Positions 41,833 through 55,017 of a DNA stretch of 64,000 nt are shown here, piece by piece. Position 1 is the stretch's first letter, and every line of letters begins with the position of its first letter. The translations under genes were made by a program, and so were the position numbers. Origin of the DNA: Bacillus sp. F19 (GTDB lineage Bacteria; Bacillota; Bacilli; Bacillales; Bacillaceae); assembly GCA_023823795.1 (NCBI GenBank), contig CP085710.1, positions 3,126,001-3,190,000 of the forward strand, given 5' to 3'. The notes beneath the pieces were generated by a model. The model did no database searches. It saw only the letters and a list, made by a program, of their open reading frames with translations, and had not been told where the DNA came from.

Positions 41833-42260
41833 CCCACCACATCGCTATCAAGCTAACAAAACAAAATACCCCCTAAAATGAAAAAAATACGCTATTCTTT
41901 CTGTAGACTCATAGGAAAGGATGGCGTTTTTGTATGTCTATTTCTGTATCTGATGAATTACAACTATTTGCTCAAGAAATTCAAAACTTCTTATCTCCAA
42001 ATTTCTTACGAGATCTTGCTAGAGATGTTGGTTTTGTACAACGAACCAGTAAGTACCAAGAAAAAGATTTAGTCGCTTTATGTGTATGGATGAGTCTAAA
42101 TGTCGCTAAAACCTCTTTAACTCAGTTATGTAGCTGTTTAGAAGCATCAACAGAAGTGCTCATCAGTCCTGAGGGACTGAATCAACGATTTAATGCCACA
42201 GCCGTGCAATTTCTACAACAAGTGTTAGCCGAACTTCTCAACCAAAAGTTATCTTCAACT
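41833..42260 (+). mobile_element. IS231-like (IS4-family) 5' part, truncated
   Basis: Left end CCACATCGCTATCAAGCTAA, then ATACGCTATTCTTTCTGTAG and AGGAAAGGATG. The transposase start at 41934 reads MSISVSDELQLFAQEIQNFL, KYQEKDLVALCVWMSL, STEVLISPEGLNQRF to about 42260, an IS4-family N-terminus. The catalytic core is absent: the IS110 copy 1 begins at 42261. The matching end at 36555 shows the element has been active here more than once. Confidence 0.78.
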
Positions 42261-42429
42261 CCCTCAGTTTGATACGAATCTCTCTCGAATGCTCACTTAT
42301 TCGCAGGATTTCATACCCCTTGTAATTGGATTACGTGTAAATGAAATGAGTTCAGATCATTTTGGCTTCGTGAAGGCATAGTTAAATAAAGGAGTCAGCT
42401 ACCACTCCATATTTTACCATATAATGCAC

Positions 42430-42570
42430 ATCTCCACGCCGCCCCTGGAGGCTTTCCCTCCCATGTCTCAACGGGTCAATTGCCCTCTCATTCCTTCGTC
42501 ATGCCTATCCAAGGGGTGGAGGCCAGTTATGCTAAACTGATGGGTCACAGTGCCCTTTTGTTGAAGAAAC
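42430..42570 (-). ncRNA. Candidate guide RNA (bridge/seekRNA) of IS110 copy 1
   Basis: A noncoding region conserved with copy 2 (CCTGGAGGCTTTCCCTCCCA, TTCCTTCGTCATGCCTATCC, AAGGGGTGGAGGC). ATGCTAAACTG at 42529-42539 equals the right junction at 44050-44060 (11 bp). GTTGAAG at 42560-42566 is the complement of CTTCAAC in the left flank (42253-42259). The two guides bracket a GGG-CCC hairpin. Flanked by GAAATCCTACGAATAAG and its inverted partner at 42295. Confidence 0.68.
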
Positions 42571-42671
42571 CTGGTACTCCGTACATATTTGAAATCCTAC
42601 GAATAAGACAACATTCAAAATTAAAGTTAACTATTTTATATGATACATTTTATATAACTAATGTTTTATTT

Positions 42672-43945
42672 CTATGCTGCTAAAGGGGATAATACTTGGA
42701 CTTTATTTGGACAGTAAGACTCGTTTCGTCGTGCTATTCCTACAAAAATCCTTGCTAGTTTACCTATCAGTTTCATTATTGACTTCATTTTTTTTATCTT
42801 TTTTACCTTCACATTATGGGAATGGACTGCTTTAAACTCAGGGTTATTCATCACAAGGCTCATAGTTGCTAAGTAGAGGAAGCGTCGTAGTCTTGACCTT
42901 CCACGCTTTGAAATAACAATCTGACCTTTCCATTTGCCTGAACTTGCCTCTGCTAGATGTAATCCCGCATGACGTAATAGAGAGTTTCCGTGAGAGAATC
43001 CACTTAGATCTCCTGACTCACCTAGTATCCCAGCTAATGAAATTTCACTTATTCCTTTAATCATAAGTAGTTTTTTTGCAAATGGTATTTTGTTGAGAAC
43101 TTCATTAACTTGTTGTTCAACTCTTTCGAGTTGTTTTACAGCGAGGTCATATTCTTCTAATAATTGTTCTAGATGGAATTTATAAGCATCAAGTGCTTGT
43201 CCAGTTCCAATAGAAGATTTTGCTAGATTGATCAGTAATTGAGCTTTTTTAGGTCCTGGTTGTCTTTTCATTAATGACTTCCATCCCCTCATGACATCTA
43301 GTTGCTCCATTGAAGATATTTCATATGGAGTTGGAAACAAACGAAGGGTTGCGATGGCACCTTTACACGAAACATCTTTAAACACTTGTCTCAGCTCTGG
43401 AAAGACAACATCTACCCATCGATTTATTTGATTAATAGACATTACGAGACGTTTTACAATCACATCACGATTAGACATTAACACTCTAAGCTTCTCAAAT
43501 GATTCTGATGATGGGCGAATAAAGGAGTAATAGCCGTTTTTGACCATATCCGCGATAACGAGAGCATCTTTTTTATCACTCTTAGATTGAGTTTTATCAC
43601 GATTTTCTTTATTCCTTTTACTAAGTGGGGATTGACTGTTACTACCTCAATATTTTGGTTATATAACCATTTTGATAGGTTAATCCAGTAATGCCCTGTA
43701 GGCTCCACACCTACTATTTCTGCATCTAAGTTTTTTATTCTTTTTAAATCTTTAATCCAGTTTAATAGTTTAACGAACCCCTCTTCATTATTTTCAAATG
43801 TAATAGGGTCTCCAATTACAATTCCACGGAAGTTAACTGCTCTGGCAACGTGTAGTTGTTGAGCGATATCCACACCAACAATAAGATGTGTATCGGAAAT
43901 TCTTTCTATTAGTTGATTTTGTTTGTCTTGCATTTTAAAATTCAT
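42672..43945 (-). pseudogene. IS110-family transposase, copy 1, frameshifted
   Basis: DEDD transposase. The N-terminal frame (43478-43945) holds LIVGVDIAQQLHVARAVNFRG and EIVGVEPTGHYWINLSKWL, the RuvC-like DEDD half. It breaks near 43625, and the C-terminal frame (42672-43547) carries the Tnp20 domain (IKGISEISLAGILGESGDLSGFSHG; LRHAGLHLAEASSGKWKGQIVISKRGRSRLRRFLY). A one-base change inactivates it. Sequence is close to copy 2, distant from copy 3. Confidence 0.85.
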
Positions 43946-44176
43946 AGTAGGGCTTCCTCCTTAAGACTCTGAGTTAGATTGGACTCTATACTCGTATCTT
44001 ACTGAGGGGCTCTATTTTTTTCAAACCTGATATTTAACGATCTACAGGAATGCTAAACTGCCCCGTTAGTTTAAGTGTATCACTTCACAATTCCAATAGA
44101 GTAGAGTCTATTGAGACAGACATAAAATCGTGCAAAATAAGGATTCTTAAAGTCTCATACGACTTGTCTCAAAACT

Positions 44177-44214
44177 CTTACCGTTGTAAATCCGCATTTT
44201 CCTGACTGTACCCC
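44177..44214. repeat. Solo Tn3-family inverted repeat
   Basis: On the minus strand GGGGTACAGTCAGGAAAATG then CGGATTTACAACGGTAAG, 38 bp. Same end type as 57530. The rest of 44060-44271 has no gene. Confidence 0.78.
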
Positions 44215-44271
44215 TTTTAGACTTTGGTTATTAAACAAAACTTCCCCTTAGCAGTATTTAAAAAGCGTTTC

Positions 44272-44352
44272 CTCTTATTGAAGAAACGCCCCCGATTGTG
44301 GAATATCATTTATGTTGTCTTATCGAAGAAAAGCGCCCTTTAACGGAATAAC
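44272..44352. repeat. Dispersed repeat, two modules
   Basis: ACGCCCCCGATTGTGGAATA, then TATGTTGTCTTATCGAAGAA and GCGCCCTTTAACGGAATAAC. It lies about 40 bp past the subtilase stop. Confidence 0.85.
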
Positions 44353-44389
44353 CGAAACATGGAATTTGTTCAAAATAACTTAATTCATC

Positions 44390-45907
44390 TTATATACCCG
44401 TTCTAATTTCTTTTAATTGTAACTTTTCCTTTTTGTATTGTTTATAGGCTTCATGTAAAGCATTTGCTTTTTCAGCTATTAAATCTGGATCCGGTGTAAG
44501 TTCAAATTTTGGAAATTCCGATGACTTTAATAGATATTTGTCTACACACCATCGTACAGACAAATTTTCATCTTTTGCCCAAGGTATCCAAGATTCAATT
44601 TCGTTTGCTGGAGCATCTTGAAGAAGGCCATACATATATATCCCTCTCACACCTCCTTCACTTTCTGTCTGTAATTGGGCCCAGAATTTTTCTCTTTCTT
44701 CCGAATTTGCTGGTTTATGTAATCCTGAAACAGCAATGTTTCTAACGATACTTGAGGGATCTAATGTATACATCCATAAGTCTTTCCTGCTGCAGAGAGA
44801 GTGTTCTACTAGATATGATAGAGCTAAAGCTCGTTCTATCTCGCATTTCGATTGTAATGAATTTGTAGGATTTTCTACAGTAATTGGCCTTTTTATTTGA
44901 GGAGGAACATTGTTTGAATACCCTGTTTCCAAGGCTTTTAATACTTTTGAAACATTGACTTTTGGTGCAGGGTTATCATAGTTATCTATATAATCTCCCA
45001 GTTCCTTTAGAACATTTTTAAGTAATTGAATGTCGATATGTGGAAACTTTGAAAATAAGTATGCACAAATACCTGCTATTAAAGTTCCGGATCCACTTGT
45101 TCCGCCATAAAAGGCCACAGATCCTATAGAGCCATCTTTTTTATGAATAGGTACGGGTAAATACGTTCTTGGTCCTAAAATATCAGGTCTCATATGTCCA
45201 TCCCCATTCGGTCCCCATGGTTCATCGGTATGAGGGACATGTTGCTTTAAATCAGCGGAACCTCGATCGTTATAACCGCCTACAGCTAAATATTCAACAG
45301 GTGGTCTAATATTCGTTATTCTAGAATTTCCATTCGAACATACCACTAGAATGTCTTTTTCTAAAACTGGGGCCAGTGCTTTTACCGTGGAATTGTATCG
45401 GGTATTTTTTAACAAGTGAGTATTATCTAAAGCATGCCATCCCATACTTAAAACAATCTTTATATTCCATTGTTCTTGTTTCTCTAAAAGCCAGTTGATT
45501 CCTTTTTGTAGTCTCTCTCCTTCTCCTTCTCTAAATGCTCCATGGTTTAGTACTAAGAAGGTTGCTGCGGGAGATATTCCTGTATGAAGTTTACCATTGA
45601 TTTTGCAAGGTTGATGGGCTAAAGAAAGGACAGTTAATAATCCGTGTTCATCTTCAAAGTTTTTTATTTCTGCCGGTTCCTCAAATGCAGGCATCTGTAC
45701 TTTAATCGATAAATCGTCATGAACAGTAATGTATATAAGCCGTTCTTTTAAATGTTGGATACTTTGATGTGGTTTTAAGGTGTCGATGATTACGATTCCT
45801 ATATTGTGACCCGATGAATTAGAATCTGGAGCATCTGGAAACCCTAACCTTAACCAATTTGGATCATACTGAGTTTCAATCAATTTATTCACTCCTAAAT
45901 TTGACAT
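44390..45907 (-). CDS. Cytoplasmic subtilisin-like protease with C-terminal helical domain
   Basis: A 505-aa S8 subtilase with no signal peptide or propeptide. Catalytic Asp in IGIVIIDTLKPHQ near residue 41, His in FEDEHGLLTVLSLAHQP near residue 88, Ser in FYGGTSGSGTLIAGICAYL near residue 267. From about residue 355 a helical region (ALALSYLVEHSLCSRKDLWMY; DPSSIVRNIAVSGL; NLSVRWCVDKYLLKSS) looks like HEAT-type repeats, unusual for a subtilase. Lacking an export signal it should act inside the cell. A role in regulated or defence-linked proteolysis is possible but not shown. It stands alone. Confidence 0.82.
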   Translation of the reverse strand: MSNLGVNKLIETQYDPNWLRLGFPDAPDSNSSGHNIGIVIIDTLKPHQSIQHLKERLIYITVHDDLSIKVQMPAFEEPAEIKNFEDEHGLLTVLSLAHQPCKINGKLHTGISPAATFLVLNHGAFREGEGERLQKGINWLLEKQEQWNIKIVLSMGWHALDNTHLLKNTRYNSTVKALAPVLEKDILVVCSNGNSRITNIRPPVEYLAVGGYNDRGSADLKQHVPHTDEPWGPNGDGHMRPDILGPRTYLPVPIHKKDGSIGSVAFYGGTSGSGTLIAGICAYLFSKFPHIDIQLLKNVLKELGDYIDNYDNPAPKVNVSKVLKALETGYSNNVPPQIKRPITVENPTNSLQSKCEIERALALSYLVEHSLCSRKDLWMYTLDPSSIVRNIAVSGLHKPANSEEREKFWAQLQTESEGGVRGIYMYGLLQDAPANEIESWIPWAKDENLSVRWCVDKYLLKSSEFPKFELTPDPDLIAEKANALHEAYKQYKKEKLQLKEIRTGI

Positions 45908-45971
45908 AGTACGCTTAACATCCCTTTAACTTAATAATAATCATCTCAAATTGCCAATATTTCCTCAATAA

Positions 45972-46094
45972 GTTATTCAAGAATCTGGCCCTTTTGTAGA
46001 AGAACTTCAGAATCCACTTACTCCGTTAAACTGCCCTTTAATTCAATAAGAAAGGCGACACTTTGTTAAGCGATCGCCCCCGATTGTAGAATAG
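45972..46094. repeat. Composite dispersed repeat
   Basis: TTATTCAAGAATCTGGCCC, CTTACTCCGTTAAACTGCCC, AATTCAATAAGAAAGGCGAC, ACTTTGTTAAGCGATCG and CCCCCGATTGTAGAATAGC. Same module order as 11292-11416. It lies directly past the 62-aa gene's terminator. Confidence 0.85.
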
Positions 46095-46117
46095 CGTTTA
46101 TTTTAATTGCTTTATAA

Positions 46118-46163
46118 AAAACAGTGAAAACAGGGTCCTATTTATCCCTGTTTTCACTGTTCT
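46118..46163 (-). terminator. Terminator overlapping the 62-aa gene
   Basis: AACAGTGAAAACAGGG and CCCTGTTTTCACTGTT arms; the first arm contains the last codons and stop of the gene. Minus-strand T tract TTTTATAAAGC is weak. Confidence 0.75.
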
Positions 46164-46326
46164 TTATAGCTTCCACTTTATCTTCAAGGCTCTTAATACG
46201 TGCCTTTGTTTTATTGTTGGTTCGGAAAAACCAAACAAGTATTAAGACTATAATTAAAAGATAAGCATAACTTAAAAATTGAAAAATTAAGTCACCAATA
46301 TTCAAAATAATCACCTTCTCATTCAT
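46138..46326 (-). CDS. Small membrane protein (DUF4083-like), 62 aa
   Basis: ILNIGDLIFQFLSYAYLLIIVLILVWFFR is a membrane helix near residues 9-36, followed by a basic coiled tail (TNNKTKARIKSLEDKVEAIKN). This is the layout of the DUF4083 family of Bacillaceae; function unknown. GAAGGTGATTATTT-type ribosome site precedes the ATG. Solitary. Confidence 0.65.
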   Translation of the reverse strand: MNEKVIILNIGDLIFQFLSYAYLLIIVLILVWFFRTNNKTKARIKSLEDKVEAIKNSENRDK

Positions 46327-46394
46327 TTATTATGTATAACTTATATACGATTGTTTAGCATTTATGTTTCATTCTAAAGTAAAGTTCTACAGTT

Positions 46395-46430
46395 TTATTA
46401 ATGCCATTAATGCCCCCTTTAATTGAATAA
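46395..46430. repeat. Dispersed repeat overlapping a stop codon
   Basis: TTATTAATGCCATTAATGCC then CCCTTTAATTGAATAAG. It contributes the last three codons and stop (LFN-stop) of the NUDIX gene. Confidence 0.75.
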
Positions 46431-46814
46431 GGCCTGTATTTTATCAGCAACTTCTTTAGGTTTAACATTAATGTAAAAAAGTTCTTTAATGTCTATCCAC
46501 ATAGGTATATAGGAACCCTTAGCTCTTTCGTTATCTGTGAACTCTAGACCTTGTCCGGTGCCGAAAGTGCCACCAACAATTTCTCCTAAGAAGAAAAACT
46601 GCTTTCCATTAAACTCAATTTCTGCAATACATTCATTCACGCATATCTCGATTCCTAACTCTTCAAACGCTTCTCTTTTTGTTGCTTTCTCAGGCGTTTC
46701 GCCTATTTCTATTCCTCCACCTGGAAAGACATAATAAGTTATTCCATTTCTTATTCGTTTTATTAAAGCAACTTTGTTATTTTCTATAAGAACAGCAGAA
46801 GCTCTATCTCTCAT
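46419..46814 (-). CDS. NUDIX hydrolase
   Basis: A 131-aa NUDIX hydrolase with an intact box: GGGIEIGETPEKATKREAFEELGIEI (GX5EX7REUXEEXGU) near residues 34-59. Start MRDRASAVLIENNKVALIKRI is the usual first strand. Such enzymes cleave nucleoside diphosphate-linked compounds; substrate unknown. The C-terminus ...KIQALFN-stop is encoded by a dispersed repeat, suggesting the repeat arrived at, or was retained at, the gene end. AGAGAGG is the ribosome site. Confidence 0.87.
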   Translation of the reverse strand: MRDRASAVLIENNKVALIKRIRNGITYYVFPGGGIEIGETPEKATKREAFEELGIEICVNECIAEIEFNGKQFFFLGEIVGGTFGTGQGLEFTDNERAKGSYIPMWIDIKELFYINVKPKEVADKIQALFN

Positions 46815-46893
46815 AACAACCTCTCTTTCTTAGATAATTTCTGACAAAACCATTGATAAGTAAAGGGCGTTCAAAAAGCCCCTGTTTAGCTTA

Positions 46894-46930
46894 ATAAAAG
46901 AGAGGAGTAAAATACTCTCCCCTCTTGCCA
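46894..46930 (-). terminator. Terminator of the MFS gene
   Basis: GAGGGGAGAGTA and TACTCCTCTC arms, imperfect, then TTTTATTA on the minus strand. Confidence 0.55.
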
Positions 46931-46934
46931 AAAA

Positions 46935-48152
46935 TTATATGTTATTCTTTCTCAACTGTTGTCTAAACAAATCCTTACTCTTTAAAGCCATAATGCTAAC
47001 TACCGCCAGTAAACCCCCAGAAAGAATAAAAATACTACGGACGCCGAAATAATCAGAAAGAATACCCATTATTAGCGAGGCAACTCCGAATGTACCTGTT
47101 CCAATTGTACCAAGGGAAGTATACACAGTTGCCAATTGTTCTTTTGGTACGGATGTCTGAACGACTGTTTGTTGAGGAATATTTTTTAATTGCCCAAAAA
47201 GACCAATTAAGGTGGACAAAATCAATGCGATTACAGGGAAACTCGTCAATCCAAATACAATCGTAAAAACGCACGACATAAAGGCTCCTGTAATTATAAA
47301 AACATTACGATTTTTATCTACAAATATGGAAAATTTAATACATAATAAACTTCCTACTACTAACCCTATAAAAAAAGAACCGTTGATAAAACCCCACCAA
47401 TATTCTTGTGCCTTTAATGCCTGCTCGACATAAACCAATAATATTGCTGCTATCCAAACGGAGCCAGCGATAGTTTCAAAAAACTCCATACGAACCACTG
47501 TTTTTAACAGGGGTGTACTACTAATCGTTTGCCATCCTTGTGTTAATAGTGTCCACTTTTTTTCTTGCGTTTCATCTTTGTTTTCCACATTTTTCAATAC
47601 ACCTAATATGATGCTCGAAAAAACAAATAGCACAATAACTATCCAAATCAGCTGGTTTGGATTGAATACAATTAATAGCATACTTCCAAAAAACCAAGTC
47701 CCTATTTGAATAGACTGGGTAATTGTTTCTGCTATTCCGTTTGCTTTGACTAAGCTATCCTCTTCCACATAATATGGAATTAAAGTCTGTCTAATTGGAT
47801 TTGCACAACCATCAAGGAGAGCAATCAAAGCAATCACTAAAAATATTAATGTAAAGTTACTTGAATCTACACCTACAGTCAAAAAAATGCCTAATCCAAA
47901 TAAAAAAACCGTTTTTCCTATTTGCGAACCAGTTAATAAATGTTTCAAGTTAAACTTACCTATTAGCAGTGGTGTTAAAATGCTTGAAATAAACATAGAA
48001 AAAGTAATGGTAAACGGAACGAAAGCAGATGCGGTAGCTGATTCGGTTAAACTATAAATTATGCTAATAACACCGACAATGTATAGCACATCACCTATAT
48101 TAGCTAGTGATTGACCGAGCATTAAAAAAAGAAAGTTTCGATTTGATTTCAA
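46935..48152 (-). CDS. MFS transporter
   Basis: A 405-aa major facilitator with about 12 helices: FLFLMLGQSLANIGDVLYIVGVISIIYSL in helix 1, LLIGKFNLKHLLTGSQIGKT in the helix 2-3 loop, and YFGVRSIFILSGGLLAVVSIMALK at the end. Looks like a drug or macrolide-type exporter of the MefA/YfmO class, by composition only. ATG 48152 follows GGGGG. Own terminator; no partner gene. Located directly upstream of IS110 copy 2. Confidence 0.85.
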   Translation of the reverse strand: MKSNRNFLFLMLGQSLANIGDVLYIVGVISIIYSLTESATASAFVPFTITFSMFISSILTPLLIGKFNLKHLLTGSQIGKTVFLFGLGIFLTVGVDSSNFTLIFLVIALIALLDGCANPIRQTLIPYYVEEDSLVKANGIAETITQSIQIGTWFFGSMLLIVFNPNQLIWIVIVLFVFSSIILGVLKNVENKDETQEKKWTLLTQGWQTISSTPLLKTVVRMEFFETIAGSVWIAAILLVYVEQALKAQEYWWGFINGSFFIGLVVGSLLCIKFSIFVDKNRNVFIITGAFMSCVFTIVFGLTSFPVIALILSTLIGLFGQLKNIPQQTVVQTSVPKEQLATVYTSLGTIGTGTFGVASLIMGILSDYFGVRSIFILSGGLLAVVSIMALKSKDLFRQQLRKNNI

Positions 48153-48514
48153 ATTTATCCCCCATTTCTAAATTGTCTTTAAAAACAGGGAAGTTAAATT
48201 GGAATATTTCGCATAAACTTTTCTCCTTTTATATATGCAATATGATAAAAACCTCAGGGGGATAACAAGACTTATCACTTTTGCATCTGAATTTTATAAT
48301 TTATATGATTACTTGAATTTTTAAAGTATTGTTAAACTCCCTCTGCTAGATGAGTATTTCTCTCGAATGCTCGCTTATTCGCAGGATTTCAATCCACTTG
48401 ATAGAATATGAATGAATGAATAAAAGGGGTTATGACCGTTTTGACAATGTGAAGGCAGATGGAAACAGAGGATTCAATATAAATCCTATAATATTCCATA
48501 TGCTGCACGCATAC

Positions 48515-48660
48515 TCCACGATGCCCCTGGAGGCTTTCCCTCCCATGTCTCAACGGGTCATGTTGACATGCCCTTTCATTCCTTCGTCATGCCTATCCAA
48601 GGGGTGGAGGCTGGTTTTGCTAACCTAACGGGTCATTGCCCTTTTGTTTAACACATCCAG
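48515..48660 (-). ncRNA. Candidate guide RNA of IS110 copy 2
   Basis: Conserved with copy 1 (TGGAGGCTTTCCCTCCCATG, ATTCCTTCGTCATGCCTATC). GTTTAAC at 48646-48652 is the complement of GTTAAAC in the left flank (48331-48337). TGCTAACCT at 48618-48626 matches the right junction TGCTAAACT with one mismatch. CATGTCAAC and GTTGAGACATG pair on the minus strand. Bounded by a CTTATTCG / CGAATAAG inverted repeat at 48374 and 48678. Confidence 0.68.
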
Positions 48661-48729
48661 TACTCCATGCTTTCTTTGAAATCCTACGAATAAGCCAATA
48701 CTCGCGAACATCTACTCAAATGGCTATTT

Positions 48730-50003
48730 TTATGCTGCTTCTTGAGTGATTGGGAATACTCTCTCTGGTACATATTCAGAACCACTTCTAGCCATTCCTA
48801 CCAAAACTCTAGCGAGTTTACCGCATAACTTCATGACGGATTTTATTTTCTTCATTTTTTTCACCTTCACATTTTTAGAATGAATCGCTTGAAATTCAGG
48901 ATTATTCATGATGAGGCTCATCGTCGCAATAAACAGGAACCGTCTCAGTCGGGACCTTCCTCGTTTGGACAAAATAATTTGTCCTTTCCATTTACCAGAG
49001 CTCGCTTCGGAGAGATGCAGCCCAACATGGCGAAGTAGAGCATTACCGTGAGCGAATCCACTTAAATCACCTGATTCACCGAGAATTCCAGCTAATGTGA
49101 TGGTGTGAATCCCTTTAATGGCAAGCATCTTTTCAGCAAAAGGTACCTGCATAAGCACATTTGTTACCTCTTGTTCAACGGCTTCAAGTTGGACAGTCGC
49201 AAGATCGTATTCCTCTAGTAACTGCTTCAATGGAACTTATGGGCGTTAAGAGCTGATTGAGTGCCGACAGATCGGTTTGCAAGAGTGATCAATGAATGAG
49301 CCTTGGCAGTTCCGGCATGTCTCTTCATAACTGTTTTCCATCCTTTCACGATATCATCGGCCTGTAATGAACGAAGTTCAAGTGGAGTAGGAAACAAGCG
49401 AAGCGTTGCGATGGCGCCTTTACTAGTCACGTCTTTAAATACGTCTCGAAACTCAGGAAAGACAATGTCGACCCATCGGTTAATCTGGTTGATTGAACTC
49501 ACACGTCGTTTGTTTACCACGTCCCGATTTGACATGAGGACACGAAGTTTTTCAAATGATTCTGGCGTGTAATAAACGATTGTATAGTAACCATTCTTCA
49601 CCATATCAGCAATCACAAGTGCATCTTTTTTATCGCTTTTTGATTGAGTATTATCTCTGTTTTCTTTGTTTCTTTTTACGCGATAAGGGTTTACAGTGAC
49701 AACCTCTATACGTTTTTCAGATAACCATTTTGATAGATTCATCCAGTAATGACCGGTAGGTTCCATCCCGACGGTGGTTTTTCCTAGTTTATATATACGT
49801 TTAAGGGAATCAATCCACTGAAGAAATTTTGTAAATCCGCCTTCACTGTTTTCGAATGTCAAAGGATCACCTATTATAATACCCCGGTAGTTTACAGCTC
49901 TGGCAACGTGGAAGTGTTGAGCAATATCTACACCCACAACAAGATGGTGATCTGTAATTTTTTCAATCAGTTGATTTTGTTTGTTTTGCATTTTAAAATT
50001 CAT
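48730..50003 (-). pseudogene. IS110-family transposase, copy 2, frameshifted
   Basis: Close relative of copy 1. The N-terminal frame (49227-50003) holds LVVGVDIAQHFHVARAVNYRG and TVGMEPTGHYWMNLSKWL with an intact DKKDALVIADMVKNGYY stretch. It stops at HKFH; the C-terminal frame (48730-49230) resumes at KQLLEEYDLATVQLEAVEQ through IKGIHTITLAGILGESGDLSG. One base change near 49230 breaks it. Different break from copy 1, so the two decayed independently. Confidence 0.85.
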
Positions 50004-50105
50004 AGTAGAGCTTCCTCCTTAAGATGGTTTAGATTGGTGTCTATTTCATCTTACTGAGGGGGCCTCTTTTTTTCAAAGTTGAAATTAACTCACTACAGGA
50101 ATGCT

Positions 50106-50158
50106 AAACTGTCTCGATTGCTTAAAATCAATTACAGATAAGCGCCCGATTATAAAAG
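50106..50158. repeat. Dispersed repeat at the copy 2 junction
   Basis: AAACTGTCTCGATTGCTTAA, then ATAAGCGCCCGATTATAAAA. Right-hand target flank of IS110 copy 2; about 70 bp past the CcdA gene's stop. Confidence 0.75.
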
Positions 50159-50228
50159 TTTGTCCTGGAACATTCACGCTGCATAGATATCGTGAAAGAC
50201 CAGCCTAATTACACCGTAATAAGAATTC

Positions 50229-50930
50229 TTAGAAACCTGTAAACCCCCTAAATACATAACTTGATAAGAAATTTGTTATTTTAGTCATCCAACCAAAATA
50301 TAAAAACACGCCCATAAAAATCATTGCATACCCACCAAATTGGTTTATATTTCTATTGTATTTTTTAATCCATTTAGAATTTCCAATGAAAAATGACATT
50401 AAAAAAAATGGTATTGAAAAACCAAATGTATAAGCAATCATATAAATTAAACCCTGCCCGGTATATAAACCTAAAGTGATAACGGCACCTAATATTGGTC
50501 CAACACAAGGTGTCCAACCAGCAGCATATCCTATTCCAATTAAAACGGAACCTAAATACCCTGAAGGACGATTTTTAAATGTGATTTTTCTATCCATCAT
50601 TAAGAACTTTGGTTTCAAAATGCCAACAACAACCAAACCAAAAAACACTATTAAAATTGCTCCTATCTTTTGAATTAGATCTTTGTATTGAGAAAAAAGA
50701 CTACCGATAATTGATGTTGATAATCCTAGAACAACAAAAATAATAGAAAACCCAAGCAAGAAGAAAAAGGTATGAAGCATTGCACTACGATTTAGTATGG
50801 AATTATCTCTTAACTCCCCCACCGACATTCCTGTAATATAAGATAAAAATGCAGGATAAAGAGGTAAACAACACGGAGATATAAATGAGAAAAACCCTGC
50901 ACCAAAAGCCAAAAAAATATTTAAGTCCAC
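50229..50930 (-). CDS. Cytochrome c biogenesis protein CcdA-like
   Basis: A membrane thiol-disulfide carrier of the CcdA/DsbD type, about 233 aa with six helices. SPCCLPLYPAFLSYITGMS holds the first redox Cys pair region and GYAAGWTPCVGPILGAVITLG the second. It moves electrons inward-to-outward for cytochrome c maturation or spore-envelope thiol reduction. The GTG at 50930 is preferred (GGAG eight bases upstream); the ATG-type start at 50948 lacks support. No thioredoxin-like partner is adjacent. Confidence 0.85.
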   Translation of the reverse strand: MDLNIFLAFGAGFFSFISPCCLPLYPAFLSYITGMSVGELRDNSILNRSAMLHTFFFLLGFSIIFVVLGLSTSIIGSLFSQYKDLIQKIGAILIVFFGLVVVGILKPKFLMMDRKITFKNRPSGYLGSVLIGIGYAAGWTPCVGPILGAVITLGLYTGQGLIYMIAYTFGFSIPFFLMSFFIGNSKWIKKYNRNINQFGGYAMIFMGVFLYFGWMTKITNFLSSYVFRGFTGF

Positions 50931-51048
50931 ATATTCATCTCCTACCACCGTCTAATTTCTATCCATCACAAACTTACACAGTCACATATTCCATTAAACT
51001 GTACATTTCTGGAATAACATACCATTCAAGGTGAATCACTTAATTTCC

Positions 51049-51130
51049 TTCCTTACTCCACAATCCTGCCCTTTACTTTAATAAGAAGAAGCGACACTTT
51101 GTTAAGTAATCGCCCCCGTTTGCCGAAGAT
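51049..51130. repeat. Composite dispersed repeat
   Basis: CCTTACTCCACAATCCTGCC, TTTAATAAGAAGAAGCGACA, CTTTGTTAAGTAATCGCC, then CCCGTTTGCCGAAG. It ends at the stop of the membrane protein gene. Confidence 0.8.
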
Positions 51131-51459
51131 TAATTTGCGATGTTTTTACGTCTTATATAAAAGGTAATTGGGTTAACAAATCCAAGGATTAAAATTACCA
51201 AGAACATATAGGTAGTAACTACATCTCCTCCTAAACCAAGTTCATCTACAATTATTGCATCGTAGTATAGCAATTGTGCAGATGCAATTACCGACACTAT
51301 TGATAATCCCACCACAGAAAGACCACTCACCATTTTTAGCCTTATTTTAGGAAAAATGATAATAAAAAACATAAGCAAAGCTGTAATAATAAACGTGACA
51401 AAAATAGGTCTTAATAATGTGAATGCTCCTAAGGTTTCGAATGAATCGTATGTATACAT
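51130..51459 (-). CDS. Membrane protein, 109 aa
   Basis: Four predicted helices: LGAFTLLRPIFVTFIITALLMFFIIIFP, VSGLSVVGLSIVSVIASAQLLYY, VVTTYMFLVILILGFVNPITFYI. Family not recognised. ATG 51459 with GGAGGTG seven bases before is preferred over 51489. Ends basic (RRKNIAN). It lies directly beyond a repeat and upstream of nothing on its strand; its upstream neighbour is IS110 copy 3. Confidence 0.65.
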   Translation of the reverse strand: MYTYDSFETLGAFTLLRPIFVTFIITALLMFFIIIFPKIRLKMVSGLSVVGLSIVSVIASAQLLYYDAIIVDELGLGGDVVTTYMFLVILILGFVNPITFYIRRKNIAN

Positions 51460-51689
51460 AAGCACCTCCAAAATCTTCTTATTCAACAATCCTCCCTCTA
51501 TAAAGAAAGGAATAACTCTGGATTTCTAGCTTTTTCTTAAGATTTCATCATGGTTTATTTTAATTAGACATCAAAGCTATGGATGTAAGTTGAAAATAAG
51601 GATATTTTTGGAGTGTCAGAGAAAAAAAGTCCTTAACTGCCTAACCACTCCTATCCAAAAAGTGGTTACCTAGTAAAAGTATGGTTGCA

Positions 51690-51845
51690 CTGGTGGATGT
51701 CCACATGTCTCATGGAGGTCAACCCTCCCATGTCTCACAGAGTCTATGCTCCAAAATTCCTTCGTCCAACCTTTCCATGAGGTGGATGTCAGTGATGCTG
51801 CCCGACAGGATCAAAGTCCGTAGTATTGTTGTTTTACTGACTAAT
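51690..51845 (-). ncRNA. Candidate guide RNA of IS110 copy 3
   Basis: Same layout as copies 1 and 2 (CATGGAGGTCAACCCTCCCA, ATTCCTTCGTCCAACC, ATGAGGTGGATG) with different spacing. ATGCTGCCC at 51795-51803 equals the right junction 53312-53320 (9 bp). ATTGTTG at 51825-51831 is the complement of CAACAAT in the left flank (51484-51490). GGATC and TCC pair between them. Confidence 0.66.
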
Positions 51846-51910
51846 CCGTGCTTCAAATGTCTAAAATAATAAACCTAATAAAACTAAATAAATAACCAAC
51901 TAAATGAATT

Positions 51911-53197
51911 CTAAGCTGCTTTCTGTAATGGTGCCATATGGGGAATATCCTTCAACATTCTATCTTCACTAAATTCACATTGTTTTGTACCAATCGTAAA
52001 AAGAATTCGTATCAGCTTATTACATATCGCTATAAGAGACTGCATTTTCTTTAGAGGATTTGTTTTACGTGTTGTAAAATACTCATGTAAAGCTTTAAAA
52101 GCAGTGTTCTTAGCTACCAAAGGCATCGCTACTCGGAAGAGGAGAGCCCTCAGTGTCTTCCTTCCTCTCTTTGTAATCTTCGTTTGCCCTTTGTGCTTTC
52201 CAGAGGTATTCTCCTTTAAGCTTAATCCAGCTAACTTGATGATTTGTCGAGGGTGAGAATAGTAACTTAAATTCCCTACTTCTGAAAAGAAGCCAGCTAC
52301 AGTGTCCTTGCCGATTCCTGTGATGGCCAACATTTGTTGAACACCTGGTATCCGTTCAAGGAGTCCATCAATATCAGATTCTAGTTCTTCGAACTTTTCA
52401 TTTATTAATTCATACTTGTCTAGTAAAGTGCGAAGCTCTAATTTAGCCATCCTTGAACCTTCACGAATACCAATAGAGTCTTTGGCTACTCGTTTAAGTT
52501 CTTGAATTTTACTGAGTCCAACCGCACGTTTTACAGCTTTTCTGAGATGAATGAGGATCTCTTGTTCCGAGACTATCTCTAACTCATGTGGTAATACATT
52601 TAACTTTAATAATTGTAGTGCTGATTTTCCTTCCCAATCTTTAAACACTGTTAAGAATTCAGGGAAATATCGATCTAACCAGTTATGAATTTGCCCCTGC
52701 ACAGCTTGTAAGTCAACAAATAAGAGATCGCGTATTTTCCTTGCCACACGAAGTTCTGCATAAACTCCTTGTGGAATATTAGGTTCGGCATATCTTCCAT
52801 CTTTGACTAGCTGTGCAATGACTTTTGCGTCCTTCACATCATTTTTGGTTGGAGAATTATCATCTAATTCTTTAGACTTCTTCACATGCATAGGATTTAC
52901 CACGACAAACTTAATCTCCTCTTCTTTCAGAAAATGAGCGAGGTTGAGCCAATAATGACCTGTCGGCTCCATTCCAATAATCACCTTATCCATGCCTTGT
53001 TGTTCCATCAAATGTTTTATCCAGCCTAAAAAAAGATCAAAATGTGATTTGGTATTTTCAAAGTGACATGGTGCACCAAACTCTAGGCCTCTAAAGTCTT
53101 GAGCACGAGCTACATGCTTGTACTTCGCAATATCTACACCTATAATCAGTGTTTCAGAAGTAATTTGAGCAATCTTTTCATTTTGGTTATAATTCAT
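51911..53197 (-). CDS. IS110-family transposase, intact
   Basis: DEDD transposase of about 428 aa. N-terminal RuvC-like half: LIIGVDIAKYKHVARAQDFRG and IIGMEPTGHYWLNLAHFLK, KNDVKDAKVIAQLVKDGRY. C-terminal Tnp20 half: LLERIPGVQQMLAITGIGKDTVAGFFSEVGNLSYYSHPRQIIKLAGLSLKENTSGKHKGQTKITKRGRKTLR. The ATG at 53197 follows GGAGG. No frameshift, unlike copies 1 and 2; a separate subfamily from them. Confidence 0.9.
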   Translation of the reverse strand: MNYNQNEKIAQITSETLIIGVDIAKYKHVARAQDFRGLEFGAPCHFENTKSHFDLFLGWIKHLMEQQGMDKVIIGMEPTGHYWLNLAHFLKEEEIKFVVVNPMHVKKSKELDDNSPTKNDVKDAKVIAQLVKDGRYAEPNIPQGVYAELRVARKIRDLLFVDLQAVQGQIHNWLDRYFPEFLTVFKDWEGKSALQLLKLNVLPHELEIVSEQEILIHLRKAVKRAVGLSKIQELKRVAKDSIGIREGSRMAKLELRTLLDKYELINEKFEELESDIDGLLERIPGVQQMLAITGIGKDTVAGFFSEVGNLSYYSHPRQIIKLAGLSLKENTSGKHKGQTKITKRGRKTLRALLFRVAMPLVAKNTAFKALHEYFTTRKTNPLKKMQSLIAICNKLIRILFTIGTKQCEFSEDRMLKDIPHMAPLQKAA

Positions 53198-53386
53198 ATT
53201 GATGGCCTCCTGGTATATATGTTTTGTCCTTTTCGCAGCCCGCTTCAGGACACTCATATCATACCAAGAGGTTATTTTTTTGTTCAAACCTCATTTTTCT
53301 TCATTACAGGAATGCTGCCCAATTGCTTAGTAACAATTATTTCAAAATTTGTAAATGTTAACAATTGTTTTATCGAGAATAAATAG

Positions 53387-54469: not shown

Positions 54470-55017
54470 TTTTGCTAGTTCTGCTATCCTTAGTAGTTTT
54501 GTTTCCATTCATTATTCCTACCTCTATGTGTAGTAAATGTGTCCCTAGTAAGGGTGATTACTGGTAGCAGCCTTTCCTCCATCGGCATTACCCAACTTCA
54601 TTGGTACTACGCTGCTATCCGACTCCCTACATCGGCATTTGGTTTCCTTGCTTTTTATCGCTTGTGCACCATACTCTTCTAAAAAAAAGAAAAGACCGGT
54701 AGGGTCTCCCGAGTTGCCGTATCATATCAATGTATAACGTGCCAAGGTCTATGACTCCAGAGAGGTTTTACCCTTCTTGCCTTTAACGAAAGATAAAATG
54801 TAGCTTTCTGCAGCGCGTAAAGCATCAGCCCTCTCGATTTACAATCATTATGGAGCTCAATCCCTTCAACCAGTTGGCTTTCGGCCCGCCACCTCACTGT
54901 CTACGCTTAAAGACTAAAGTTACCTTTAGTCCTCCAAGACTCGCTACGAGCGAATGGCTAGTTCTTACTCGACGGGAATCCCACCCGTTATATGATACGA
55001 CCTAGGCTCAGCCGCAC
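54470..55017 (-). mobile_element. Group II intron, 5' part, truncated
   Basis: On the minus strand it begins GTGCGGCTGAGCCTAGGTCG at 55017, a GUGYG-type intron start, and continues with AACGGGTGGGATTCCCGTCG, GCTTTACGCGCTGCAG, CTCGGGAGACCCTACC and GGAGTCGGATAGCAGCGTAG, all group II intron domain I-III features. It then reaches METKLLRIAELAKSEE (ATG at 54508), the first 16 residues of an intron reverse transcriptase, and breaks off. Upstream exon is the repeat AACAATAGGGCGCTT. Region 54275-54469 has no gene. Confidence 0.78.

Follow-up and report, generated by a model that had tools for sequence, protein, structure and literature searches.

Three IS110-family copies with downstream candidate RNAs

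The window analyzed here, a 64,000-nt stretch of Bacillus sp. F19 (contig CP085710.1, positions 3,126,001 to 3,190,000), carries three insertion sequences of the IS110 family, referred to as copies 1, 2, and 3, whose transposase genes run on the minus strand and are followed by long non-coding regions (Table 1). IS110-family domains were detected in the transposases of all three copies. The intact transposase of copy 3 reached 111.2 bits for DEDD_Tnp_IS110 (cut-off 29), 69.3 bits for Transposase_20 (cut-off 21.3), and 209.5 bits against NF033542 (cut-off 140), as expected for a member of this family. Its open reading frame (ORF) was listed from a TTG, an ATG at 53197 being the likelier start, which gives a protein of about 428 amino acids, unlike the 328 of IS621, with which the DEDD and Ser transposase residues nevertheless align in position. 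The closest plasmid match to this protein (95.7% identity, Metabacillus dongyingensis) is annotated merely as an IS110 family transposase. In copies 1 and 2 the frame is split, into ORFs 42672-43547 and 43478-43945 and into ORFs 49227-50003 and 48730-49230, respectively. A second genomic copy with guides identical to those of copy 1 lies elsewhere in the genome.

A preliminary description had suggested that the three non-coding regions share landmarks and hold short segments matching the flanks of their own copy. The landmark pattern CCCTCCCATGTCTCA-N15-40-TTCCTTCGTC indeed occurs three times in the window and in none of 100 shuffles, and the segments lie where described: ATGCTAAACTG (42529-42539) and GTTGAAG (42560-42566) in copy 1, TGCTAACCT (48618-48626) and GTTTAAC (48646-48652) in copy 2, and ATGCTGCCC (51795-51803) and ATTGTTG (51825-51831) in copy 3. 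In each copy these segments fall within a candidate structured RNA of about 153 nt, located 3′ of the transposase and in the same sense. As argued below, each copy, as an IS110-family element, very probably encodes a bridge RNA in its 3′ non-coding region, with the same orientation as the transposase.

Table 1 Features of the three IS110 copies in the window; guide functions are predicted.
Feature	Coordinates	Strand	Basis or remark
Copy 1 IS110-family element	42261-44052, CT cores 42259-42260 and 44053-44054	minus	domains, ORFs, ends
Copy 1 bridge-RNA candidate	42432..42584	minus	model R1, 173.7 bits; copy in seed alignment
Copy 1 left target guide, RNA CUUCAAC = left flank CTTCAA + core C	42560..42566	minus	flank match, covariation
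Copy 1 right target guide, core, and handshake bases, plus strand TGCTAAACTG	42530..42539	minus	flank match, covariation
Copy 1 left donor guide, RNA AGGAAUG = element end AGGAATG|CT	42489..42495	minus	sequence, alignment
Copy 1 right donor guide and core, RNA GGGAG	42458..42462	minus	register from relatives' donor covariation
Copy 2 element	48339-50103, CT cores 48337-48338 and 50104-50105	minus	domains, ORFs, ends
Copy 2 bridge-RNA candidate	48514..48670	minus	covariance model; copy in seed alignment
Copy 2 left target guide, RNA GUUAAAC = left flank GTTAAA + core C	48646..48652	minus	flank match
Copy 2 right target guide, core, and handshake bases, TGCTAACCTA vs flank TGCTAAACTG	48618..48627	minus	4/6 target bases match
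Copy 2 left donor guide, CATTCCT on plus strand	48577..48583	minus	sequence, alignment
Copy 2 right donor guide and core, CTCCC on plus strand	48540..48544	minus	register from donor covariation
Copy 3 element, transposase intact	51494-53314, CT cores 51492-51493 and 53315-53316	minus	domains, ORFs, ends, empty sites
Copy 3 transposase, DEDD RuvC and Transposase_20 domains	51911..53287	minus	ORF list, domain searches, IS621 alignment
Copy 3 bridge-RNA candidate	51699..51851	minus	covariance model; copy in seed alignment
Copy 3 left target guide, RNA CAACAAU = left flank CAACAAT	51825..51831	minus	flank match, copy-3-type test
Copy 3 right target guide, core, and handshake bases, TGCTGCCC	51796..51803	minus	flank match, copy-3-type test
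Copy 3 left donor guide, plus strand ATTCCT, RNA AGGAAU	51756..51761	minus	sequence, alignment
Copy 3 right donor guide and core, CTCCC on plus strand	51725..51729	minus	register from donor covariation
Uninterrupted dispersed-repeat copy, copy-3 kind of target contiguous (CACAATC-CT-GCCC)	51053..51085	plus	
Another uninterrupted dispersed-repeat copy (GTTAAACTGCCCTTTAATTCAATAAG)	46017..46050	plus	

Guides agree with flanks across related insertions

Guide–flank agreement was evaluated across relatives of these copies. A landmark scan of a species-representative collection yielded at least 119 loci, 80 of them among the matches listed by name; together with the copies from the same genome and one viral contig, these named loci provided 135 non-coding regions after six loci from the same genome had been dropped as repeats. 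Ninety-one regions belonged to the type of copies 1 and 2 (copy-1/2 type), 23 to the type of copy 3, and 3 to a third type, while 18 were unparsed and unused. With the RNA read in the sense of the transposase and the strand carrying CT called top, the first of two unpaired regions reads 5′ left target guide (LTG), hairpin, and 3′ right target guide (RTG) followed by AG and CA. For the copy-1/2 type, the left guide matched its flank at a mean of 5.42 of 6 positions versus 4.28 when permuted (79 of 91 insertions testable) and the right guide at 4.63 of 6 versus 2.92 (56 of 91 testable), and these values were reached in 0 of 10,000 permutations on either side; the same was true when only unique pairs were retained (38 left pairs, 4.84 versus 3.83; 41 right pairs, 4.27 versus 2.65). 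The copy-3 type varies little and its agreement is weaker, with 5.95 of 7 versus 5.39 for the left guide (19 of 23 testable; 6 of 10,000 permutations) and 4.73 of 5 versus 4.42 for the right guide (15 insertions; 2 of 10,000). When all types were combined for the right guide (207 of 217 records parsed; 128 unique insertions, 33 guide types), agreement was 4.73 of 7 versus 2.23, again with 0 of 10,000 permutations, and RTG positions −5 to −1 matched the flank in 80, 84, 86, 87, and 98% of the unique insertions, compared with 9 and 30% for positions −7 and −6.

Since the insertions are related, we also contrasted each element with its closest RNA-backbone relative carrying a different guide. The element's own combination of guide and flank won in 14 of 17 left-guide pairs (1 lost, 2 tied) and in 12 of 15 right-guide pairs (none lost, 3 tied). 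Guide covariation as initially proposed was thus borne out by both permutation and nearest-relative tests, alongside a conserved fold. Unchanged guides next to different flanks, which would have spoken against it, do occur, yet in a minority: with left guide ACTTAAAC the flank CTTAAA was common to 19 of 20 copies. Two elements, L001 and L002, have identical guides at different sites that share one target. Moreover, because many close relatives differ in their guides, how such elements change targets becomes testable.

A conserved fold in the sense of the transposase

The seed alignment was derived from 86 distinct regions thinned to 55, of which 54 were aligned (L089 was omitted for its odd length). 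Over all types, the consensus shows two unpaired regions, each containing a GGG/CCC hairpin, with the second enclosed by a long stem; an outer stem of the first region was seen only in the copy-1/2 type's own fold. The resulting covariance model identified 7 such RNAs in the genome of this strain. It also matched 82 of 90 additional loci that had been retrieved by their transposase (identity to copy 3, 38 to 100%), the eight misses being a fragment (L149), L158 (54% identical), and six loci of two groups at 26-28% identity. Among matched RNAs, 95.2% of the pair cells were standard and 143 cells had changed on both sides, while only 33-48% paired when the partner was slid. GU exceeded AC pairs (37 and 42 versus 2 and 9), and the consensus energy favored the transposase strand for both the copy-1/2 type (−36.2 versus −31.7 kcal) and the copy-3 type (−38.1 versus −35.1 kcal), although for the latter the covariation term favored the other strand (0.36 versus 0.14). 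The opposite strand was considered as the RNA and is less likely given its weaker consensus energies and the excess of GU over AC. Overall, the RNA was present in 56 of 299 sampled genomes of the phylum.

Junctions, empty sites, and the dispersed repeat

CT is common to both junctions of each of the three copies, as the preliminary description had placed it. For copy 3, the joined flanks align at 90% with 134 nt in a genome of the same genus (G082), where the target stands uninterrupted (...TTCCACAATCCTGCCCGATTG...), and this empty site puts the junctions at CT|CCCTC and GGAATG|CT, exactly as anticipated. The match extends for 378 nt at 89% on the left and for just 32 nt, about to the repeat end, on the right, so that the right-hand context in G082 is not shown to be the same locus. 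A second uninterrupted site, in genome G494, agrees with more gaps (129 columns, 81%, 16 gap columns). Both sites place the crossover at CT without duplication. Site-specific insertion without target duplication, as is characteristic of IS110 elements, is thus seen from empty sites for copy 3 and from the CT at the junctions for all three copies.

The targets belong to a dispersed repeat. The genome of this strain contains 19 matches to the copy-1 target pattern, all with one or two mismatches and none of them exact, and 10 to the copy-3 target pattern with at most one mismatch (one exact), compared with 0 for either reversed pattern; for the wider repeat at ≤3 mismatches, the counts were 28 versus 5. 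Reconstructed sites, compared by eye, indicate that the copy-1/2 and copy-3 types enter this one repeat in different registers. We dropped "hairpin repeat" as a name for the target, as 61 reconstructed sites had a mean fold z of −0.60 with 9 below −2; some relatives' target sites do fold, and among six sites of the same genome L013 alone fell below −2. In a transposase tree (80 of 184 rows after thinning, unrooted, the very long rows L348 and L275 being doubtful), separate clades are formed by the copy-1/2 and copy-3 types, and lineages of the Shine-Dalgarno class described below stand beside the copy-3 clade, so that repeat targeting may have arisen more than once. Two elements have guides that fit unusual targets unlike the dispersed repeat, namely CCTTGTC-CT-GCGGGA for L041 and GTGGTCGC-CT for L113.

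Donor loop and proposed mechanism

In the second unpaired region, the 5′ side reads AGGAAU(G), identical to the left donor end, and the 3′ side reads GGG, GAG, or GAT followed by AG, corresponding to the right donor end and core. The right donor guide was compared with the donor end among 163 matches of the RNA model (four without a callable end or guide were omitted), and the two were concordant in 74 of 75 unique pairs (58 GGGAG, 10 GAGAG, 6 GATAG). In L328, the sole exception, GAGAG stands immediately in front of the motif that was chosen, and the end was probably called wrongly. Independent donor changes are few because the variants follow clades, and the left donor guide hardly varies. 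GAGGG-A, the register initially assigned to the right donor guide, was abandoned after the donor-end variants had shown GGG/GAG/GAT-AG. A matching change was also found at a handshake base: L051 and L074 end in AATT|CT, and their RNA has AA in place of CA.

In the mechanism that we propose from these patterns, the LTG on the 5′ side of the first loop, which equals the plus-strand left flank up to the C of the core, would base-pair with the left target's bottom strand, while the RTG would pair with the right target's top strand, its AG with the core, and its CA with the TG at the element end. The two sides of the second loop would recognize the left donor end and the right donor end with its core, and the transposase would then join circle and target at the two CT cores, exchanging strands without duplication. 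We infer that the bridge RNA is made, bound, and used; it may be processed out of the transposase transcript.

Relation to IS621 and IS1111 elements

In IS621, gene and RNA run with the CT strand, whereas both run against it in the elements described here. The mechanism itself is already known from IS621 and seekRNA elements, and what is added here is an extension of bridge RNAs, with both target and donor stretches tied to sequence, to IS110 elements that encode the RNA at their 3′ end. As far as the excerpted accounts of IS621 go (PMC11208160, PMC11208158), the likeness includes a target loop 5′ of the donor loop, an LTG on the 5′ side for the bottom strand and an RTG on the 3′ side for the top strand, a CT core, handshake bases for the incoming donor end, and a right guide that continues past the core to cover two bases at the end of the element itself; in IS621, the excerpts of PMC11208158 have the handshake guides pairing with the donor after strand exchange. 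Unlike in IS621, where the excerpts of PMC11208160 place the RNA in the left end, the RNA lies 3′ of the transposase, and the Pro of the G--P----SG motif, as it appears in the excerpted publications, is a Leu in all three copies.

A long non-coding region downstream of the transposase is instead shared with the IS1111 elements ISEc11, ISPa11, and ISKpn4, whose seekRNAs also have, in the excerpts of PMC11187229, the top-strand match 5′ of the bottom-strand match when the transposase strand is taken as top. Since gene and RNA run against the CT strand, the published order of top and bottom matches is reversed with the pairing geometry unchanged, which suggests that the reversed IS1111 guide order may only reflect which strand is called top. 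The transposase is longer than the 330-350 amino acids that the same excerpts give for IS1111. Likewise, the subterminal inverted repeats of 7-17 bp that mark IS1111 were not found above chance in nine elements, the longest exact repeat within 45 nt of the ends being 5-6 nt versus shuffle means of 4.9-5.4 (imperfect repeats were not sought). Of the initial comparison with IS621 and IS1111, the bridge-RNA-like character therefore stands and membership of the IS1111 group by its inverted repeats does not. The likeliest home of these elements is the 'green' group of PMC11187229, IS110-type with a 3′ non-coding region, to which they are likened by description only and for which the excerpts give no guides or targets. 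Judged by its sequence features, with a loop covarying with the target (more weakly for the copy-3 type) and a loop covarying with the donor ends, this is a putative bridge-RNA- or seekRNA-like system in IS110 elements with a 3′ RNA and without subterminal inverted repeats above chance. The openly licensed literature searched held nothing on the guides, donor covariation, or repeat or Shine-Dalgarno targets of this subgroup, and nothing relevant on IS110 targets in Bacillaceae or on Shine-Dalgarno targeting.

Alternative explanations

Any single 7-bp match is weak, as the preliminary description acknowledged, and the three matches at corresponding places, which it regarded as not weak, would still be weak on their own. 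With flanks that share an AT-rich dispersed repeat, short matches could have been picked by chance given enough freedom of search. However, none of 10,000 permutations reached the observed agreement for either guide, the agreeing positions fall in the same columns, and the nearest-relative contrasts stood at 14:1 and 12:0. This leaves the explanation with a negligible probability, and for the copy-1/2 type guide matching is settled because related insertions agree. Sequence agreement by itself does not prove an RNA, and the matching segments might instead be binding sites of the transposase in the DNA or traces left by captured flanks. This is improbable, as the segments are unpaired and flanked by conserved stems in which compensatory changes occur and GU pairs outnumber AC, another stretch of the RNA varies together with the donor end, and the layout repeats the guide and handshake layout found in the excerpts of PMC11208158; flank capture, in addition, would not produce the identical guides that L001 and L002 carry at different sites sharing one target. 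In ISPpu9, two small RNAs regulate transposase expression (excerpts of PMC8450116), and an RNA that acts in a similar way here, with target matching secondary, would be a further possibility. Yet the candidate RNA is in the sense of the transposase, 3′ of the gene and away from its start, and the guides follow the flanks, which makes a regulatory role very improbable.

Guide–flank agreement, right-donor-guide agreement, conserved pairs, and CT overlap at the junctions are observed directly. Several points nonetheless weigh against a bridge-RNA reading. Some guides misfit their own site (≤4 of 6 for 9 of 79 left guides, ≤3 for 10 of 56 right guides). Of six copies with left guide CGTTGTAC, three have fitting flanks and three do not. 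Left-guide support in the copy-3 type is only moderate (80 of 10,000 permutations for 14 unique pairs). Permutation counts overstate independence because the insertions are related and some are repeats of each other (L024, L121). The fold count comes from an alignment that was itself fitted to the structure, this structure derives from the very strand that it favors, and further pair types were not above shuffles (29 versus 31.7). The GG that follows AG in the donor loop of the copy-1/2 type misfits the target base before the core, an A in 76 of 79 insertions. Finally, the transposase frames of copies 1 and 2 are broken, and among the three, copy 2 makes the weakest case, since AACCTA, as its right guide, agrees with the right flank AAACTG at 4 of 6 positions.

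For guide type CGTTGTAC/GCGCAA, the left flank fits in L042, L044, and L061 and misfits in L053, L099, and L136; one L042 copy and L104 are masked at the left flank, and L104 and L136 are flanked by sequence of the usual repeat kind. These misfits may stem from guide regions having been exchanged between copies or from mis-assembly.

A Shine-Dalgarno class of relatives

Among relatives across the phylum, some guides read AAGG-AG, i.e., the Shine-Dalgarno motif. We counted insertions followed by a start codon 3-15 nt after the core that opens at least 50 codons. In a first count (listed landmark-scan and transposase-fetched loci), 30 of 48 unique insertions with an AGGAG guide passed versus 4 of 130 others. 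A later set of 80 more loci came from the 56 RNA-bearing genomes, mainly multi-copy ones, and here 22 of 29 insertions with a flank ending in AGG passed, compared with 18 of 49 with other or unknown left ends. Over both sets, 47 of 68 unique insertions with an AGG flank end, both element ends, and enough flank had a start at 5-14 nt (7-10 nt in 38 of the 47), whereas the same test shifted by 13-65 nt gave 8-14 of 68, shuffles a mean of 1.2, and those landmark-scan and transposase-fetched insertions that lack GG 1 of 86. Motif sites as such passed at about 26% (AAGGAG 154/597, AAAGGAG 76/290; landmark-scan loci in other genomes, mostly Bacillaceae), so the motif alone does not explain the 69% of insertions that pass. 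Selection against insertions inside genes may explain this excess before start codons.

After insertion, element end and target together read GGGAGG in 58 of 68 cases. We infer that the sites of this class would be ribosome-binding sites and that the rebuilt motif would be functional. Four of the 68 (L190-L193, genome G183) lie inside a different dispersed repeat, CCGCAGGCACGAGG (transposase strand), with a right guide CCCGAGG that largely fits, and the left guide of the class fits poorly by eye. On the 80-row transposase tree, the Shine-Dalgarno label requires 8 changes, 7 of them being forced by starred branches. Taken together, we consider it somewhat likely that this is one phylum-wide bridge-RNA family whose aim has shifted naturally between dispersed repeats and the Shine-Dalgarno motif: right guide and core would read AAAGG-AG, the element would enter just before a start codon in the direction of the gene, and its end GGGAG plus the target G would rebuild GGGAGG, so that the host gene may keep a working ribosome-binding site. 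If true, translation starts throughout the genome would be the target of an RNA-guided transposon with site repair built in. A transposon addressed to the Shine-Dalgarno motif by RNA would be a new way of living safely in bacterial genomes and could supply broad-target recombinases. In a separate group (L304-L316, genomes G349 and G400), the guides end in ACG instead of AGG, and start codons follow in 4 of 8 insertions with flank ACG.

Other features of the locus

No Rfam family matched the elements at gathering thresholds, and the sole match in the window was a group II intron (D1-D4-6, 157 bits) at 54745-54981 on the minus strand, near the IS110 cluster. A short ORF at 41934-42272 resembles, by eye, part of another transposase; because copy 1 sits at its end, the two flanks of copy 1 may stem from different original sites. 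Inspection by eye also revealed a promoter-like TTGAAC-18-TATGAT (53258-53287, minus strand) in the left end of copy 3, ahead of the transposase.

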